Positions 11,723-18,477 of a DNA stretch of 64,000 bases are shown here, piece by piece. The translations under genes were made by a program, and so were the position numbers. Each line of letters opens with the position of its first letter. Within the stretch, counting starts at the first letter, position 1. The stretch is from assembly GCF_020622265.1 (NCBI RefSeq), contig NZ_JACNMQ010000007.1, positions 1 to 64,000 on the forward strand. The letters run 5' to 3'. Under the pieces are notes generated by a model. The model ran no database searches. It saw only the letters and a program-made list of their open reading frames with translations, and was not told the DNA's origin. This DNA is from Halomonas sp. M20 (GTDB taxonomy: Bacteria > Pseudomonadota > Gammaproteobacteria > Pseudomonadales > Halomonadaceae).

Positions 11723-11899
11723 ATGTACATCTATCGCATCATGCTATTTCTGGTTTTCGGCGGCTATCTGCTCTCACCGGTATTGATGAGCGGCTGGGGC
11801 GAGCCCGATGCTGCCTGGTACCGCCCCTTTTTGATCTGGGGCGCCCTGATTGCACTCGGGGTATGGTTAGAGCAAAAGAGAAAGCTCGATGAGCGCTAA
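11723..11899 (+). CDS. cbrX: Small membrane protein CbrX-like, upstream of cbrA
   Basis: A 58-residue frame, MYIYRIMLFLVFGG to KRKLDER, with two hydrophobic segments (residues 5-22 and 35-50) and a basic C-terminus, so probably a two-pass inner-membrane peptide. It ends 11 bp inside cbrA, which implies translational coupling. Pseudomonas has a gene of matching size and position (cbrX) between gluQ and cbrA, and translation of CbrX has been reported there to influence CbrA. Identity is assigned by position, size and coupling rather than by a motif. Confidence 0.75.
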   Translation: MYIYRIMLFLVFGGYLLSPVLMSGWGEPDAAWYRPFLIWGALIALGVWLEQKRKLDER

Positions 11900-14831
11900 T
11901 CTCCTTGGCACGCTTGTTCTTGGCGCAGGTTACTTGTCACTCCTCTTTCTGAGCGCTCTAGCGGTCGAGAAAGGATGGGTTCCAAGACGTCTGGTACACC
12001 ATCCTGCGGTCTACTCGCTATCCTTAGGCGTCTATGCCAGCGCCTGGGCCATCTACGGCAGTGTCGAACTGGCCTCCCGGGTGGGCTATGGCTATCTGGC
12101 CTACTACCTGGGCGTTTCCGGCGCCTTTCTACTGGTCTCGGTCATGCTGGTACCCATTCAGCGCCTGGCACGTACCTATCAGTTGACCTCCCTTGCAGAC
12201 CTGTTCGCCTTTCGCTTTCGCAGCCGCTGGGTCGGCACGCTGATCACCCTGATCACCCTGATGGCGGTGATGCCGCTTTTGGGGCTGCAATTGAAGACAC
12301 TTGGCGATGCGCTTCATCGTTTGACCGGCAGCGAATCGCCCACATTGCTGGCTCTACTCTTTTGCCTCCCGATCACATTACTGGCCATCATGTTCGGTGC
12401 GCGGCACAGTCATCTGCCGGTACGCCACGATACCTTGCTGGCGGTCATTGCACTGGAATCCCTGGTCAAGCTGGCCGCCTTGCTGCTGTTGGGCGCAGTG
12501 GCGCTTTACGGGATCTTCGACGGCCCCGCTGATCTGCAGAATTGGCTCGAAGGCCCGGGTGTTGCGTTGCAAAGCGATATCACGCGACTAGACACCGGCC
12601 AGTGGCGCATTCTGTTGCTGCTGTTCTTCGCTGCAGCTTTTCTCATGCCGCACATGTTTCACATGACCTTTACCGAAACGCCCTCACGCAAGGCGTTGTT
12701 ACAGGCCGGCTGGAGCTTTCCCTTCTACCTGCTACTGATCGCGCTTCCGATCCCCTTGATTGTATGGGCAGCACAACGCCTGGGTATCGACACATCGATG
12801 CCAGGAGCCGCCTATCTCGCCTTCGAACTGTCCACCAACCCCTGGATCGATAGCCTGGCATTCATTGCGGGGCTGGCCGCCGCCAGTGGTACCTTGATCA
12901 TCGTGGCAGTGGCGCTTGCAGGAATGACCTTGAATCACCTGGTGCTGGTCGCACGCCCTCCGGACAAAAGAGAAAACCTCTACCGCCGACTACTCTGGTT
13001 GCGCCGCATCTTGATCGTCGCTGTCATCCTCGGTGCCTGGTTGTTCTATCAAGGCGTGGGTCAGCATCAGGATCTTGCGGAACTGGGACTGACCGCCTTC
13101 GTTGGCATGGCGCAATGTCTCCCGGGCCTGCTTGCGATTCTCTACTGGCCCGGTGCCAATCGCAAAGGCATGCTCTGTGGCCTAGCCACCGGCTGCACGA
13201 TCTGGCTACTGGGAATGTGGTTGCCCTTTCTCAGTGGCTTTTCGCCCATGGCGCTGCTGCCTTCCAGCCTGGATTGGCTCCTAGACGAGCCGACCTGGTA
13301 TGTCGTCACCCTCATTGCGCTCAATGCCAATATTCTGATCTTCATTCTGGTATCACTGGTCACGCGGACCTCGCCCGGGGAGCGCGCTGCCGCCGAAGCC
13401 TGCTCCGTCGAGGCTGTCATTCGCCCACAACGATTACCATTGACGGCGCGTAACGCGGAGGAGTTCAAGCATCTGCTAGCCGACGCGCTGGGGCCGGAAA
13501 CCGCCAAGCGAGAGGTGGAGAACGCAACCCGTGCACTAAAGCTATCCGCTCAGGACAATCGCCCCTATGCCCTGCGTCGTCTGCGAGACCGCATTCAGGC
13601 CAACTTGTCGGGGCTGATGGGGCCCTCGGTAGCGCAGGATATCGTCGATCGCTTTCTGCCGTATCGATTGGGCGAAGGTAGAGGCACCGATGACATTCAC
13701 TTCGTCGAGCGCCGCCTGGAAGCGTATCGCACTCGCTTTACCGGTTTGGCACGGGAGCTCGACGGGTTGCGCCGCCATCATCGTCGAACGCTGGAGCGTT
13801 TGCCCGTTGGCTTGTGCGTCTTCGACGAGGAAGGCGAACTGCTGATGTGGAACGATGCACTGGCACAGCTTTCGGGCATCGATGGCAATCATGTGGTCGG
13901 CGCGCATCGAGACGGGCTCCCCCCACCCTGGAGCGATCTTCTTACACGCATTCAGGACGAACCGCATGACTATCTCTACAAGCAAGCCGTGACACTGGCA
14001 TCCCAGACACGCCATCTGACGCTGCATCGGGCGCTGTTGCCGCCGGAAGAAGGCGACCATGGCGCCATGGTGATTCTCATTGAAGATCACAGCGAGCTGA
14101 AATGGCTCGAGGACGAACTGGTGCACAGCGAGCGCCTGGCTTCCATCGGCCGCCTGGCGGCGGGCGTCGCCCACGAGATCGGCAATCCCATCACGGGAAT
14201 TTCATCCCTGGCCCAAAACCTACGCTACGACAGTGATGACCCTGACACTGCACGAACCGCCGAGCAGATCCAGCAATTGACCCAGCGGGTATCCTCCATA
14301 GTTACCTCCCTGGTCGGCTTTGCCCACGGTGGCCGCCACATTCAGAATACTCAGTTGACGCTGCTGGAACTGCGCCCGCTTGTCGATGAGGCCCTGCACT
14401 TGATCCATTTGGCGCGCTCGGGAGAGGATGTAAGCTATGACAACCGTTGCCCGTCTGGGATACAGGTTACAGGCGATGCCCAGCGTCTAGTGCAGGTGCT
14501 GGTCAACCTGATCGGCAATGCGCGTGACGCCAGTCAGCCGGGAGGTCTTGTGGTTCTAGCGGCCGATATCCAGGACAACTGGGTACGCTTGAGCATCACC
14601 GACGATGGCCATGGCATCGACGGCTCGATTCGCGATCATCTCTTCGAGCCCTTTGTTACCACCAAGGCCCCCGGCAAGGGAACAGGGCTCGGATTGCCGC
14701 TGGTGTACAGCATCGTCCGCGAGCATCATGGTGATATTCGCATTGATTCGCCTGCCCCGGGTCACCTGCGGGGTACCCGCATTACACTCCGCTTCCCTCG
14801 CCCGCAAGAGGGGGGAGCCGCAACAGGATGA
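11889..14831 (+). CDS. cbrA: Two-component sensor kinase CbrA with sodium/solute symporter domain
   Basis: Histidine kinase of 980 residues. The N-terminal half has about 13 hydrophobic helices of the sodium:solute symporter (SLC5/STAC) type; a PAS-like segment follows around residues 640-740 ([18 protein letters not shown]), then the H-box [12 protein letters not shown] (His762), N-box LIGNARDAS and G-boxes DDGHGID and [10 protein letters not shown]. Known role in Pseudomonas: senses carbon/nitrogen balance and phosphorylates CbrB to set carbon catabolite repression and histidine/amino-acid use. It overlaps cbrX by 11 bp and cbrB by 4 bp (ATGA), so cbrXAB is one translationally coupled unit. 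Confidence 0.95.
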
Positions 14832-16216
14832 TTCATACGCCGATGAGTAGAATTCTGATCGTTGAAGACGAAGCCATCATTCGCAGTGCTCTGCGCCGCC
14901 TACTGGAACGCCACGACTATCAGATCAGCGAGGCCGGTTCAGTGGAGGAGGCGTTGTCTCTCGATCCCAAGCGCTTCGACCTGATCATCAGCGATCTGCG
15001 CCTACCCGGCCCTCCGGGCACCGATCTCATCGATGCCGCTGATCCTGTGCCGGTGCTGATCATGACCAGCTATGCCAGCATGCGATCCGCCGTGGAAGCG
15101 CTCAAACAGGGCGCCGTTGATTATATCGCCAAACCTTTCGATCACGACGAACTCATCAAGACCGTTGCAACCACATTGCGTTGTCATGCACCCACTTCGC
15201 AGGAGGCGTGCGCTCCAAACTCGGCGGCACCCCAGGAAATGATCGGCGACTGTCCTGCCATGCAGATCGTTTACGATCGCATACGCAAGACGGCACCCGC
15301 CGATGTCACGGTACTGGTTCACGGTGAGTCCGGAACCGGCAAGGAGCTGGTGGCACGCGCCTTGCACCGGCAGAGTCGACGTGCCAACTCGCCATTGATC
15401 TGTGTCAATTGCGCAGCAATTCCTGAAACCCTGATCGAATCCGAACTGTTCGGTCACGAAAAAGGTGCATTCACCGGCGCAAGCGCGGCACGCACGGGCC
15501 TGGTCGAGGCTGCGGATGGCGGCACGCTGTTTCTGGATGAAATTGGCGAGCTGCCATTGGACGCTCAGGCCCGGCTGCTGCGGGTTCTGCAAGAAGGCGA
15601 AATACGCAAGGTCGGCTCCGTGGAGACTCGCCATGTGAATGTACGCCTGATCGCCGCGACCCATCGCGATTTGCATGCGCTATCGCGCAGTGGTGAGTTC
15701 CGCCTCGATTTATATTATCGCCTCAATGTAATGCAGATCGATCTTCCACCGCTGCGCGAGCGTGAAGACGACATCTTGAAAATTGCTGATATTCTTCTGG
15801 ATAGCGCATGTCGGCGCCATGCTCGTGAAGGTCTGAAGCTTTCACGCGCGGCGCGGCGCGAGATCCGCGACTATCCCTGGCCGGGCAATGTCCGCGAGCT
15901 GGAAAACGCCCTGGAGCGCGGCGTGATACTGGCTGAAAGTCATCTCATCCATCCTGAAGATCTTGGGCTAGCGACACCAAAACCCTCACTCAATGCGAGC
16001 AAGCCCGCAGCAACTGCCTTGCACAGTGTTCCCAAGGACGCGGAAGAAGATCTCTCACTAGAGGATTACTTTCAGCACTTCGTGCTCGAACACCAGGAGC
16101 AAATGAGCGAAACCGAGCTGGCGCAAAAACTTGGTGTCAGCCGCAAATGCCTTTGGGAGCGGCGACAGCGCCTGGGCATTCCACGCAGAAAAACCTCGCG
16201 CACCCGCACCAACTAA
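14828..16216 (+). CDS. cbrB: NtrC-family response regulator CbrB (sigma54 activator)
   Basis: The 462-residue protein has a receiver domain (phosphoacceptor Asp56 in IISDLRLPG), a central AAA+ domain with Walker A GESGTGKE and the sigma54-contacting GAFTGA, and a C-terminal Fis-type helix-turn-helix ([20 protein letters not shown]). It activates sigma54 promoters, in Pseudomonas notably that of crcZ. The start at 14828 overlaps the cbrA stop (ATGA) with GGGGGGAG 10 bp upstream; the in-frame ATG at 14843 would match the Pseudomonas N-terminus better and remains possible. The next element downstream is the CrcZ-like RNA. Confidence 0.95.
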
Positions 16217-16310
16217 AATCTTGGCCGAAAAGATCGACTAATGTCTAACAAGGCTAAATTGATCATAAATAAACATATTTTCGTCGAGGCATCCCTGAAA
16301 ATACCTCTTT

Positions 16311-16361
16311 TGTTACCTTCTTACCCACTTCGTGCCACATTCGGCACCAACTTCGGTAACA
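16311..16361 (+). promoter_or_regulatory. Candidate CbrB upstream activating region (TGTTACC-N37-GGTAACA)
   Basis: TGTTACC (16311-16317) and its reverse complement GGTAACA (16355-16361) bracket an inner inverted repeat GTGCC-N6-GGCAC (16332-16347). The far arm ends 73 bp before the -24 element, a normal enhancer distance for an NtrC-type activator. As I recall, Pseudomonas CbrB sites use TGTTAC/GTAACA half-sites with a much shorter spacer (about 14-15), so the half-sites match but the spacing does not. Binding by CbrB is inference. Confidence 0.55.
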
Positions 16362-16374
16362 CGCGAATGTCGCC

Positions 16375-16387
16375 AATCAGCCAGTGA
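16375..16387 (+). promoter_or_regulatory. Possible IHF site between the enhancer and the sigma54 promoter
   Basis: AATCAGCCAGTGA fits the IHF consensus WATCARNNNNTTR except for one base, and lies midway between the TGTTACC/GGTAACA pair and the -24/-12 promoter, where DNA bending is usual. The consensus is short, so chance is possible. Confidence 0.3.
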
Positions 16388-16434
16388 TTTCGAACCAACT
16401 TCAAGCATCTGTTTTAAAAGAAAAAAAACGACAC

Positions 16435-16450
16435 TGGCATACGACATGCT
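16435..16450 (+). promoter_or_regulatory. sigma54 (-24/-12) promoter of the CrcZ-like RNA
   Basis: TGGCAT-N5-ATGCT: the GG (16436-16437) and GC (16448-16449) are exactly 12 bp apart, as the -24/-12 consensus TGGCAC-N5-TTGCW requires. Transcription would start near 16461. It lies 220 bp behind cbrB, the sigma54 activator gene, which is how crcZ is controlled in Pseudomonas. Confidence 0.75.
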
Positions 16451-16460
16451 GCTCTAATGG

Positions 16461-16962
16461 CAAGAAAAACAAAAACAGTACTGATCACTACAAGCAAACG
16501 CTGTAACAACAACAAGTAATACAGATGGCGTGACTGACGACGTTTCAACAACAATAATTATCGATCAGAAATGCGCTTGTTTTGGTTCTATAACAACAAT
16601 CATCAGGCAACGCTTGCCAATCCGATAAGCATAAAACGATTGGCTATCCGATATTTTAATTGGAACGCGACGTACCCAGAGCAGGCTCAATAAAAACAGC
16701 CGCCTGCCAGAGGCACGCCTTCGGAAACAATCACAAGAGCCGAAGGAAGGTAGACTCCCTACCGTCGTGGTTGGATTATTGTTTTGAATACGAGGCGGTC
16801 GCCATCAGGCTATCCAACAACAAGAACACTGCTTACCTGATAGATTTCATTAGTGACCGTGGTGCGTATTCAAGGCGATGCGCCATCACGAAGAAGAACC
16901 AATAGCATGGATGCTGAGCAACTTGCTTCCAGGGGAGACCATGACAGGTCTCCCCCTTCTAC
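16461..16962 (+). ncRNA. crcZ: CrcZ-like Hfq/Crc-sequestering small RNA
   Basis: Located between cbrB and pcnB, the exact site of crcZ in Pseudomonas. The predicted RNA (about 500 nt, from the sigma54 promoter to the hairpin at 16932-16955) holds seven CA-rich AANAANAA motifs: 16462-16475, 16505-16516, 16547-16557, 16592-16599, 16689-16696, 16816-16827 and 16891-16898. In Pseudomonas such motifs bind the Hfq distal face with Crc and titrate it from target mRNAs, relieving catabolite repression. The primary sequence outside the motifs is not recognisable to me as Pseudomonas CrcZ. Short frames here have no ribosome-binding site and no family resemblance. Confidence 0.8.
16932..16962 (+). terminator. 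Terminator hairpin of the CrcZ-like RNA
   Basis: GGGGAGACC (16932-16940), loop ATGACA, GGTCTCCCC (16947-16955), then CCTTCTACTTC. The nine-bp stem is perfect; the T content after it is moderate, so termination may be incomplete or Rho-assisted. Confidence 0.65.
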
Positions 16963-16999
16963 TTCTCTGCATTTGAAATACAAGCCCCCGCGCAATGCT

Positions 17000-17027
17000 T
17001 TGCAAGCCTCCCGGGCTCGGCTACACT
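17000..17027 (+). promoter_or_regulatory. Candidate sigma70 promoter of pcnB
   Basis: TTGCAA (17000-17005), 16-bp spacer, TACACT (17022-17027), 34 bp before the pcnB ATG. A separate promoter here supports the view that the preceding RNA is an independent transcript. Confidence 0.5.
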
Positions 17028-17061
17028 GGCCGTTTAATTTACCGCGAGCCAATATCGCTGC

Positions 17062-18477
17062 ATGCTTAAAGGATTTACTCGCCTTCTCCAACGCCCCGGT
17101 GAACGTTTGAAGACCCTGTTCGGCAATCAAGATGGCGTGGGTCATGTGACTCGGCCCCACATCATCCCTCGCGAAGAGCATCCTATTTCACGCCAACTGT
17201 TCAGTGATAGCGCTTTGAAAGTGCTCTATCGGCTGCACAATGCCGGCTTTGACGCCTACTTGGTCGGTGGTTGCCTGCGTGATGCCCTGCTAGGCAAGTC
17301 ACCCAAGGATTTCGACGTCGCGACCAACGCCACCCCGGAGGAGCTACGCGATCTGTTTCGCAATTCGCGCATCATTGGGCGCCGTTTTCGTATCGTTCAT
17401 GTGCGCTTCGGTCGCGAAATCATCGAGGTCACCACCTTCCGTGGTCGTCCCAATGACGATCACGGCGAACATCTGGCCCAGCAATCCGAGCATGGGTTGC
17501 TGTTAAGGGACAATGTCTGGGGCAATATCGAAGAAGATGCGCTGCGCCGGGATTTCACCATCAATGCGCTGTATTACAACATCGCGGATTTTTCACTGCA
17601 CGACTGGGCCGGCGGCGTCGACGACATCGATGCGCGTGTTCTACGCCTGATTGGCAACCCTGAAAGGCGCTACCGCGAGGATCCGGTGCGCATGCTCCGT
17701 GCCATGCGCTTCGCCGCCAAACTGGACTTCGCTCTTGCCCCGGATACCGAGGCACCCATTGGCGACATGGCTCATCTGCTGTTACAGATTCCTCCCGCCA
17801 GACTGTTCGAGGAAGTTCTCAAGCTGTTTCTATCCGGTCAGGCCGTCAGTACCTTTCATCTGCTGCGCCAATACGGTCTGTTCGCCATGCTCTTTCCCGA
17901 AGCGGAAGAATCCATGGAAGAGCTTGACTGGGCAGAGCCACTCATCATTCAAGCACTAGCCAATACCGATATCCGCATTCAGCAAGAACGACCGGTAACC
18001 CCGGCCTTTCTTTTCGCCGCCCTGCTCTGGCCAGGTGTACAGCAACGCCAAAAGCAATTGCAGGCCGAAGGGCTAGCGCCGATTCCCGCGCAGCAGACCG
18101 CCGCCCAACAGGCGGTATCGCGCCAGCTTCAGCACACCTCCATTCCCAAGCGCTTTAGCTTCCCGATGCGTGACATCTGGGACCTGCAGCAACGACTCCC
18201 CAAACGTCGTGGCAAGCGGACGTTTCAAACACTCGAGCATCCTCGCTTTCGCGCCGCCTACGACTTTCTCTTGCTGCGCGAGGCCGCTGGCGAGATCCCG
18301 TCTGGACTAGGCGCCTGGTGGGAGGCGTTCCAAAGCGGCGACGAACATGAACAGCAGCGCTTGCTGAACAAGATCGACGCCGATCCTGCTGGCGCTAGCG
18401 ATGGCCGCAAGCGTCGACCGCGCAAACGAAAGCGCAGCAACAAGTCCCAAGGGTCGTCGCCGTCAGGCCATGAGTGA
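17062..18477 (+). CDS. pcnB: Poly(A) polymerase I
   Basis: Adds 3' poly(A) tails that speed RNA decay. The 471-residue protein carries the nucleotidyltransferase signature LVGGCLRDALLGKSPKDFDVATNA with the catalytic DxD, the IGRRFRIVHV motif typical of poly(A) polymerases rather than CCA-adding enzymes, the RREDPVRMLRAMRFAAK region and a very basic C-terminus (KRRPRKRKRSNKS) for RNA binding. It overlaps folK by 8 bp. The order cbrAB-crcZ-pcnB-folK-panB-panC is as in Pseudomonas. Confidence 0.95.
   Translation: MLKGFTRLLQRPGERLKTLFGNQDGVGHVTRPHIIPREEHPISRQLFSDSALKVLYRLHNAGFDAYLVGGCLRDALLGKSPKDFDVATNATPEELRDLFRNSRIIGRRFRIVHVRFGREIIEVTTFRGRPNDDHGEHLAQQSEHGLLLRDNVWGNIEEDALRRDFTINALYYNIADFSLHDWAGGVDDIDARVLRLIGNPERRYREDPVRMLRAMRFAAKLDFALAPDTEAPIGDMAHLLLQIPPARLFEEVLKLFLSGQAVSTFHLLRQYGLFAMLFPEAEESMEELDWAEPLIIQALANTDIRIQQERPVTPAFLFAALLWPGVQQRQKQLQAEGLAPIPAQQTAAQQAVSRQLQHTSIPKRFSFPMRDIWDLQQRLPKRRGKRTFQTLEHPRFRAAYDFLLLREAAGEIPSGLGAWWEAFQSGDEHEQQRLLNKIDADPAGASDGRKRRPRKRKRSNKSQGSSPSGHE

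Follow-up and report, generated by a model that had tools for sequence, protein, structure and literature searches.

A predicted CrcZ-type Hfq/Crc sponge RNA between cbrB and pcnB in Halomonas and its relatives

The cbrB-pcnB locus

The window, that is, the whole analysed stretch of 64,000 nt from Halomonas sp. M20, carries genes for a two-component system and a poly(A) polymerase in the order cbrA-cbrB-gap-pcnB (Table 1), and the Pfam and NCBIfam domain searches bear out these genes. The initial annotation had placed a CrcZ-like RNA in the gap between cbrB and pcnB. This is the position, downstream of cbrAB and between cbrB and pcnB, that is occupied by crcZ in Pseudomonas. Further downstream of pcnB lie reading frames resembling folK, panB and panC (names assigned by eye). 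The window CbrA is 50% identical over its full length to a 984-aa protein at the cbrA position of Pseudomonas fildesensis (L004), and Pfam finds no transporter domain in it at E<=0.001. A search for CbrB relatives returned 80 loci, seven of which (L003-L009) were used and the other 73, at 38-48% identity, were taken as paralogues. The nearest named CbrB (77%) comes from a Halomonas maura record (L007, Halomonadaceae) that shares the 3' hairpin described below, and on these grounds the family compared here was taken for Halomonadaceae.

Within the family, 80 regions were fetched out of 114 CbrB-positive genomes, and pcnB was reached downstream of cbrB in 79 of the 80. The resulting set of 81 family gaps consists of the fetched regions downstream of cbrB, the window and L007, after removal of one region without pcnB (L162) and of duplicates (L083-L087); in L091, L133, L135 and L140, where BLAST did not find the end of cbrB, the gap start was set at base 65.

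Table 1. Genes and predicted features of the cbrB-pcnB locus (window positions).
Feature	Position	Strand	Description and basis
cbrA	11889-14831	+	CbrA-type sensor kinase, 980 aa; kinase domains by Pfam/NCBIfam
cbrB	14828-16216	+	Response regulator and sigma-54 activator; Pfam/NCBIfam domains
cbrB-pcnB gap	16217-17061		Intergenic
CbrB-type forward subsite TGTTACC	16311-16317	+	Sequence, conservation; consensus from PMC6296734 (accessible part)
GCACCA element	16344-16349	+	90 nt upstream of the -24/-12 box; possible second activator site
CbrB-type reverse subsite GGTAACA	16355-16361	+	Sequence, conservation; consensus from PMC6296734 (accessible part)
Sigma-54 -24/-12 promoter CTGGCATACGACATGCT	16434-16450	+	Predicted; start near 16461
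Predicted CrcZ-type RNA, about 500 nt, noncoding	16461-16960	+	Motifs, promoter, comparison of reading frames
A-rich motif 1, predicted 5' end	16462-16475	+	Motif scan
A-rich motif 2	16505-16515	+	Motif scan
A-rich motif 3	16547-16557	+	Motif scan
A-rich motif 4	16592-16599	+	Motif scan
A-rich motif 5, predicted hairpin loop	16689-16696	+	Motif scan, fold
Near-invariant, family-specific 3' hairpin	16766-16890	+	35 pairs in model R1; alignment, consensus fold, covariance model
A-rich motif 6, apical loop of the conserved 3' hairpin	16816-16826	+	Motif scan, fold
A-rich motif 7 (AAGAAGAA), directly 3' of the conserved hairpin	16891-16898	+	Motif scan
9-bp terminator hairpin	16932-16955	+	Scan; two-sided pair changes in some sequences
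Sigma-70-like pcnB promoter	TTGCAA 17000-17005, TACACT 17022-17027	+	Read from sequence
pcnB	17062-18477	+	Poly(A) polymerase; PcnB by Pfam/NCBIfam

Promoter elements upstream of the predicted RNA

The pair TGTTACC/GGTAACA, pointed out in the initial annotation, holds up well in comparison: its core, TGTTAC followed by GTAACA, is found in all 81 family gaps with cbrB and in none of 405 shuffled gaps. The two subsites are separated by 39 nt in 71 of the 81 gaps (by 29, 38, 40 or 49 nt in the others) and GTAACA lies 88-90 nt from the GC of the -12 element in 80 of them. A single R subsite was scored here, whereas P. putida crcZ has F1, R1 and R2.

The -24/-12 box with its GG-N10-GC spacing is also upheld, although through its conservation. 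Taken alone, the box in the window is not rare and not significant, as 45 of 500 shuffled sequences score equally high, and the argument for a sigma-54 promoter is therefore based on the family, in which a box scoring at least 10 of 13 is present in 79 of 81 gaps compared to 46 of 405 shuffles. The proposed IHF site stood only in part: in the window it scores 8 of 10, close to the shuffle mean of 7.9 over the family, whereas a score of at least 9 is reached in 70% of the family gaps and in 18% of shuffles. A GCACCA element, which we take to be NtrC-like, lies in most relatives at 131-145 nt upstream of the box, that is, farther away than in the window.

A side observation concerns the Rfam family P36 (RF01679, 'Pseudomonas sRNA P36'), which was matched just upstream of crcZ, at about the position of the CbrB subsites, in four loci (L222:115-175, L180:2958-3020, L220:87-147 and L004:4977-5037). 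P36 may be conserved regulatory DNA or the 3' end of cbrB, and not an sRNA.

A-rich motifs and their predicted display in hairpin loops

Eight non-overlapping AANAANAA motifs occur on the sense strand of the window gap, compared to 1.16 expected, and one on the antisense strand. One of the eight precedes the promoter and the other seven, the number given in the initial annotation, fall within the predicted transcript. Such multiplicity on the sense strand, as in CrcZ, is a property of the whole family: the mean is 8.26 motifs per gap, against 1.04 on the antisense strand and 0.74 after dinucleotide shuffling (81 gaps). Absence of the motifs from the same gap in relatives had been named beforehand as grounds for abandoning the sponge reading, and the 81 gaps show them to be conserved.

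The motifs are predicted to be exposed. Hairpin loops hold 346 of 504 A-rich motifs (69%), compared to 24% when the flanks are shuffled and the motifs kept fixed (L121, L277 and L278 were left out of this test), and such display is predicted both in gaps with CbrB and in gaps without it. With a fixed-length protocol the proportions were 67% in the family (41 of the 81 gaps; 21% shuffled), 28% in Pseudomonadaceae (12 gaps; 18% shuffled) and 31% in other loci of the order (41 loci; 16% shuffled). In the 5' part of the RNA, 19 of 29 consensus pairs change on both sides across 28 aligned family RNAs, a count made without a shuffle control. The idea that a conserved TTATTGTT masks the A-rich motifs was rejected, as the consensus fold pairs TTATTGTT with the opposite arm of the 3' hairpin.

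The conserved 3' hairpin and alternative readings of the gap

Conservation within the gap is highest in a long hairpin towards the 3' end of the predicted RNA, which the initial annotation had missed and whose apical loop, in the window, contains an A-rich motif. Across 36 sequences, 99.0% of the cells pair, compared to 29-49% when the partner strand is slid. In the inner helices four pairs change on both sides, a number reached in 5 of 500 shuffles. A covariance model finds the hairpin once per genome in 148 of the 151 genomes of the family. Among 342 genomes of the order it matches 17, all of which belong to the same family, so that the count outside it is 0 of 325; searches over more than 40 whole genomes were run with stricter filters, under which weak matches are lost. 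Among 63 loci outside the family (13 Pseudomonadaceae and 50 others) no match was obtained at E<=1, and Rfam gives no match over the hairpin at the gathering score or at E<=10. The three family genomes without a match are L162 (G024), G017 and G018. The first of these retains cbrAB, and the 1651 nt after its cbrB contain a single A-rich motif and neither a good -24/-12 box nor pcnB.

Such a hairpin could itself be the active part of the molecule. The RNA would then be a base-pairing or protein-binding sRNA whose A-rich motifs do no more than recruit Hfq as a chaperone, a reading that is favoured by the exceptional conservation and near-universal single copy of the hairpin and by its retention after loss of CbrAB (see below). 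We consider it improbable. Every one of the 81 CbrB gaps and of 27 CbrB-less gaps contains at least five A-rich motifs, with predicted loop display in both sets, which would seem to be more than a single chaperone site needs, and 17 of the 23 pairs in the outer helix never vary, which would leave little unpaired seed. In the sponge reading the 3' hairpin is an extra domain, most likely for protection of the 3' end or for docking of a protein.

Since pcnB stands at the end of nearly every gap, the sequence might alternatively be nothing but a long 5' leader of pcnB in which the A-rich stretch controls pcnB translation. This is very improbable, as the conserved 9-bp terminator hairpin recognized in the initial annotation, in which pairs have changed on both sides, separates the RNA from pcnB and is itself followed by a conserved sigma-70-like element. 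The T tract of the terminator is weak (CTTCTACTTC). The separate sigma-70-like promoter proposed for pcnB was not flagged by the promoter scan, although its sequence, CGGCTACACT, is largely conserved in an alignment of 73 gaps.

The motifs might also have arisen incidentally, from an A-rich composition of the intergenic DNA or from a small reading frame. This is hardly credible, because, although the GC content of the gap in the window is low (46%), the motif excess is strand-specific, amounts to about elevenfold over dinucleotide shuffles and also holds in gaps of 55-63% GC, and because the longest sense reading frame averages 75 aa in the family gaps compared to 68 aa in shuffles. A candidate small reading frame within the 3' hairpin (ATG CGC CAT CAC ...) was rejected, since its ATG is absent from L148, L252 and L253.

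Relation to Rfam CrcZ and known sponge RNAs

The expectation that the RNA would escape existing models was confirmed: the Rfam CrcZ model (RF01675) scores 8.7 bits on the window RNA against a cut-off of 95 and has no match in the genome. The same model recognized 6 of 6 Pseudomonadaceae control loci (272-351 bits) and none of 12 loci from other families, so that the miss in the window is no failure of the search. The six controls comprise two named records (one of them Serpens gallinarum, which belongs to the Pseudomonadaceae) and four loci of a group, f19, that was itself taken for Pseudomonadaceae on the basis of its CrcZ match. Rfam matches obtained at a lax threshold were read as chance. 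With RF01675 unmatched, the RNA is classed as CrcZ-type by locus and architecture and not as a member of the Rfam CrcZ family.

The accessible text of PMC4063720 describes CrcZ as a 407-nt RNA with six A-rich stretches that binds the distal face of Hfq. The window RNA resembles CrcZ in its position between cbrB and pcnB, its CbrB subsites, its -24/-12 promoter, its sense-strand A-rich motifs, of which there are 5-8 in the f19 gaps (ten gaps), and the fact that its genome encodes Hfq and a Crc-like protein. Besides the missing Rfam match, it differs in the higher proportion of motifs placed in hairpin loops (67-69% compared to 28% in the 12 Pseudomonadaceae gaps) and the extra 3' hairpin, for which the search of Pseudomonadaceae loci gave no match.

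Other sponges invite comparison. RsmZ/CsrB-type RNAs titrate a translational repressor through multiple protein-binding motifs in hairpin loops, a logic that the window RNA would share; their motif is GGA and their target CsrA, whereas the window RNA carries the A-rich AANAANAA and presumably targets Hfq/Crc. Some pseudomonads and Azotobacter have additional sponge RNAs, CrcY and CrcX, which are of the same kind, have the same type of promoter and differ from the present case in that each positive family genome has a single copy of the 3' hairpin. CrcY is described in PMC6296734, as far as its accessible part goes. Gaps with repeated TGTTAC/GTAACA sets came to notice only in other parts of the order (L236, L241, L242, L193, L195 and L204); L236 has 15 A-rich motifs in a gap of 1544 nt. 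This suggests that sponge genes are arranged in tandem in some of its other families.

Putative protein partners and candidate targets

The partners of a sponge of this type are encoded in the genome, with one match each for Hfq and RpoN and a Crc-like protein of 255 aa whose gene lies between pyrE and rph. The latter matches P. aeruginosa Crc (4jg3) with 255 bits (6e-75), about as well as the top PDB hit 2myi (2.5e-75), which was deposited as exodeoxyribonuclease III; other exonucleases match at 6e-61 and weaker. NCBIfam likewise names it exodeoxyribonuclease III (205 bits for TIGR00633, whose cut-off is 99, and 188 bits for TIGR00195, whose cut-off is 183). The protein has none of the motifs QE[TS]K, GDxN and SDH, all three of which are kept by a 271-aa relative in the same genome, and the aligned 4jg3 Crc is likewise without GDxN and SDH. 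Because of the match to 4jg3, the loss of the active-site motifs and the neighbouring pyrE and rph, we read the 255-aa protein as Crc. It is present in 151 of 151 family genomes (E<=1e-40).

A strict search of the genome for A-rich ribosome sites (AAYAAYAA-N-purine-GAG) returned two places only, L282 and L283, one before a gene for a membrane-transporter-like protein and the other before a gene for a small repeat protein rich in Cys (both judged by eye). Both genes are candidate Hfq/Crc targets, although two places are too few to argue from.

Distribution in the order

The initial annotation had placed the RNA 'outside Pseudomonas', which understates the spread of its signature. CbrB-like proteins are matched in 286 of 342 order genomes (E<=1e-110; the weakest may be paralogues). 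A sponge signature, defined as four or more A-rich motifs together with a -24/-12 box and a CbrB subsite, was present in 47 of 57 order loci outside the family, from 17 family groups, and in 1 of 1140 shuffles; as the 57 loci comprise the 17 best returned automatically and 40 picked by hand among the strong CbrB hits listed, this proportion is not an unbiased frequency. In group f19 the signature was found in 10 of 10 loci, and all four of these that were scanned with Rfam scored as CrcZ. The ten loci without the signature include three from group f7 (L210, L211 and L212), which have a CbrB match, no pcnB in the fetched stretch and no signature downstream; the RNA of this group may lie elsewhere or be absent. 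The breadth of both CbrB-like proteins and signature points to Hfq/Crc sponge control as a probably ancient trait of the order.

This distribution extends the published picture. In its accessible text, a 2022 review (PMC8871633) considers CbrAB unique to Pseudomonadaceae and the cbrA-cbrB-crcZ arrangement as described only in Pseudomonas and Azotobacter, and CbrAB is called exclusive to Pseudomonadaceae in the accessible part of PMC6296734 as well. At the level of titles and the openings of abstracts, with subscription papers largely outside reach, no report of a CrcZ-type RNA in Halomonas, Marinobacter or Oceanospirillales was found.

Retention of the predicted RNA after loss of CbrA and CbrB

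CbrB is matched in 114 of 151 family genomes (E<=1e-110) and CbrA in 91 (E<=1e-150), all of the latter among the 114. The 3' hairpin accompanies both genes in 90 of the 91 genomes, occurs in 23 of 23 genomes with cbrB and no cbrA match, and is still found in 35 of the 37 genomes with neither match. On this sequence record, the RNA outlives its own regulators in the family. In four spot-checked loci without CbrA (L172, L177, L178 and L179) cbrB directly follows a gluQ-like frame, and CbrB in the 23 CbrA-less genomes may receive its signal from another kinase. All 11 CbrB-less loci examined have the order dksA-gluQ-RNA-pcnB, with cbrAB absent from the locus, and keep 8-10 A-rich motifs and the 3' hairpin.

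The promoter of these lineages is altered in a particular way. From the 37 CbrB-less genomes 31 regions were fetched, and 27 gaps remained after L261, L265, L266 and L271, slices without pcnB, were dropped. The CbrB pair is present in none of the 27, GTAACA upstream of the box in none and TGTTAC alone in two, while all 27 have a -24/-12 box scoring at least 10. All 27 also carry GCACCA 90-160 nt upstream of the box, as do 54 of 81 CbrB gaps and 3% of shuffles; its occurrences fall at 131-145 nt in 25 of 35 cases in the CbrB-less gaps and in 51 of 73 in the CbrB gaps. Palindromes scoring at least 10 of 12 against what we take to be the NtrC consensus were found in 12 of 27 CbrB-less gaps, 13 of 81 CbrB gaps and 0.7% of shuffles. 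With the CbrB pair gone and the box, GCACCA and these palindromes in place, the RNA is probably driven by an activator other than CbrB in these lineages, plausibly NtrC. A clean 'NtrC switch' is not proven, as GCACCA is also frequent in the gaps with CbrB, which makes the element look ancestral rather than new.

A probable sponge variant in the Halomonadaceae

Conserved motifs, CbrB sites and -24/-12 box, a Crc-like protein, Hfq and RpoN, together with the Rfam non-match, support the CrcZ-like sponge proposed at the outset, and we put the probability that the gap encodes a CrcZ-type Hfq/Crc sponge RNA at roughly 85%. By locus, promoter, motifs and partners it would be a sponge of the CrcZ type outside the Pseudomonadaceae; loop display and the 3' hairpin make it a variant. 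Its function would follow by analogy with Pseudomonas. When preferred carbon runs short, phosphorylated CbrB would bind the TGTTAC/GTAACA subsites and, aided by DNA bending, activate sigma-54 RNA polymerase at 16434-16450. An RNA of about 500 nt would be made, starting at about 16461 and ending at the terminator (16932-16955), and its A-rich motifs, mostly in hairpin loops, would engage Hfq at its distal face, together with Crc. The titration of Hfq/Crc would finally lift the translational repression of catabolic mRNAs.

A more tentative extension, which we hold to be possible rather than probable, is that the Halomonadaceae sponge has two parts, the A-rich loop array and the near-invariant 3' hairpin with a partner or target of its own, and that it forms the stable core of the circuit. 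CbrB would have been exchanged in some lineages for another sigma-54 activator acting at GCACCA, possibly NtrC, so that nitrogen and not carbon status would set the release of Hfq/Crc. The lineages that have lost CbrAB and kept the RNA are natural experiments on the purpose of the sponge and on the signal that drives it.

Reference titles in PMC9049629 point to the use of Halomonas in bioplastic production, which lends its carbon hierarchy practical importance. If the sponge reading is true, the circuit for carbon-source control that PMC8871633, in its accessible text, places only in Pseudomonas and Azotobacter extends to the Halomonas family.
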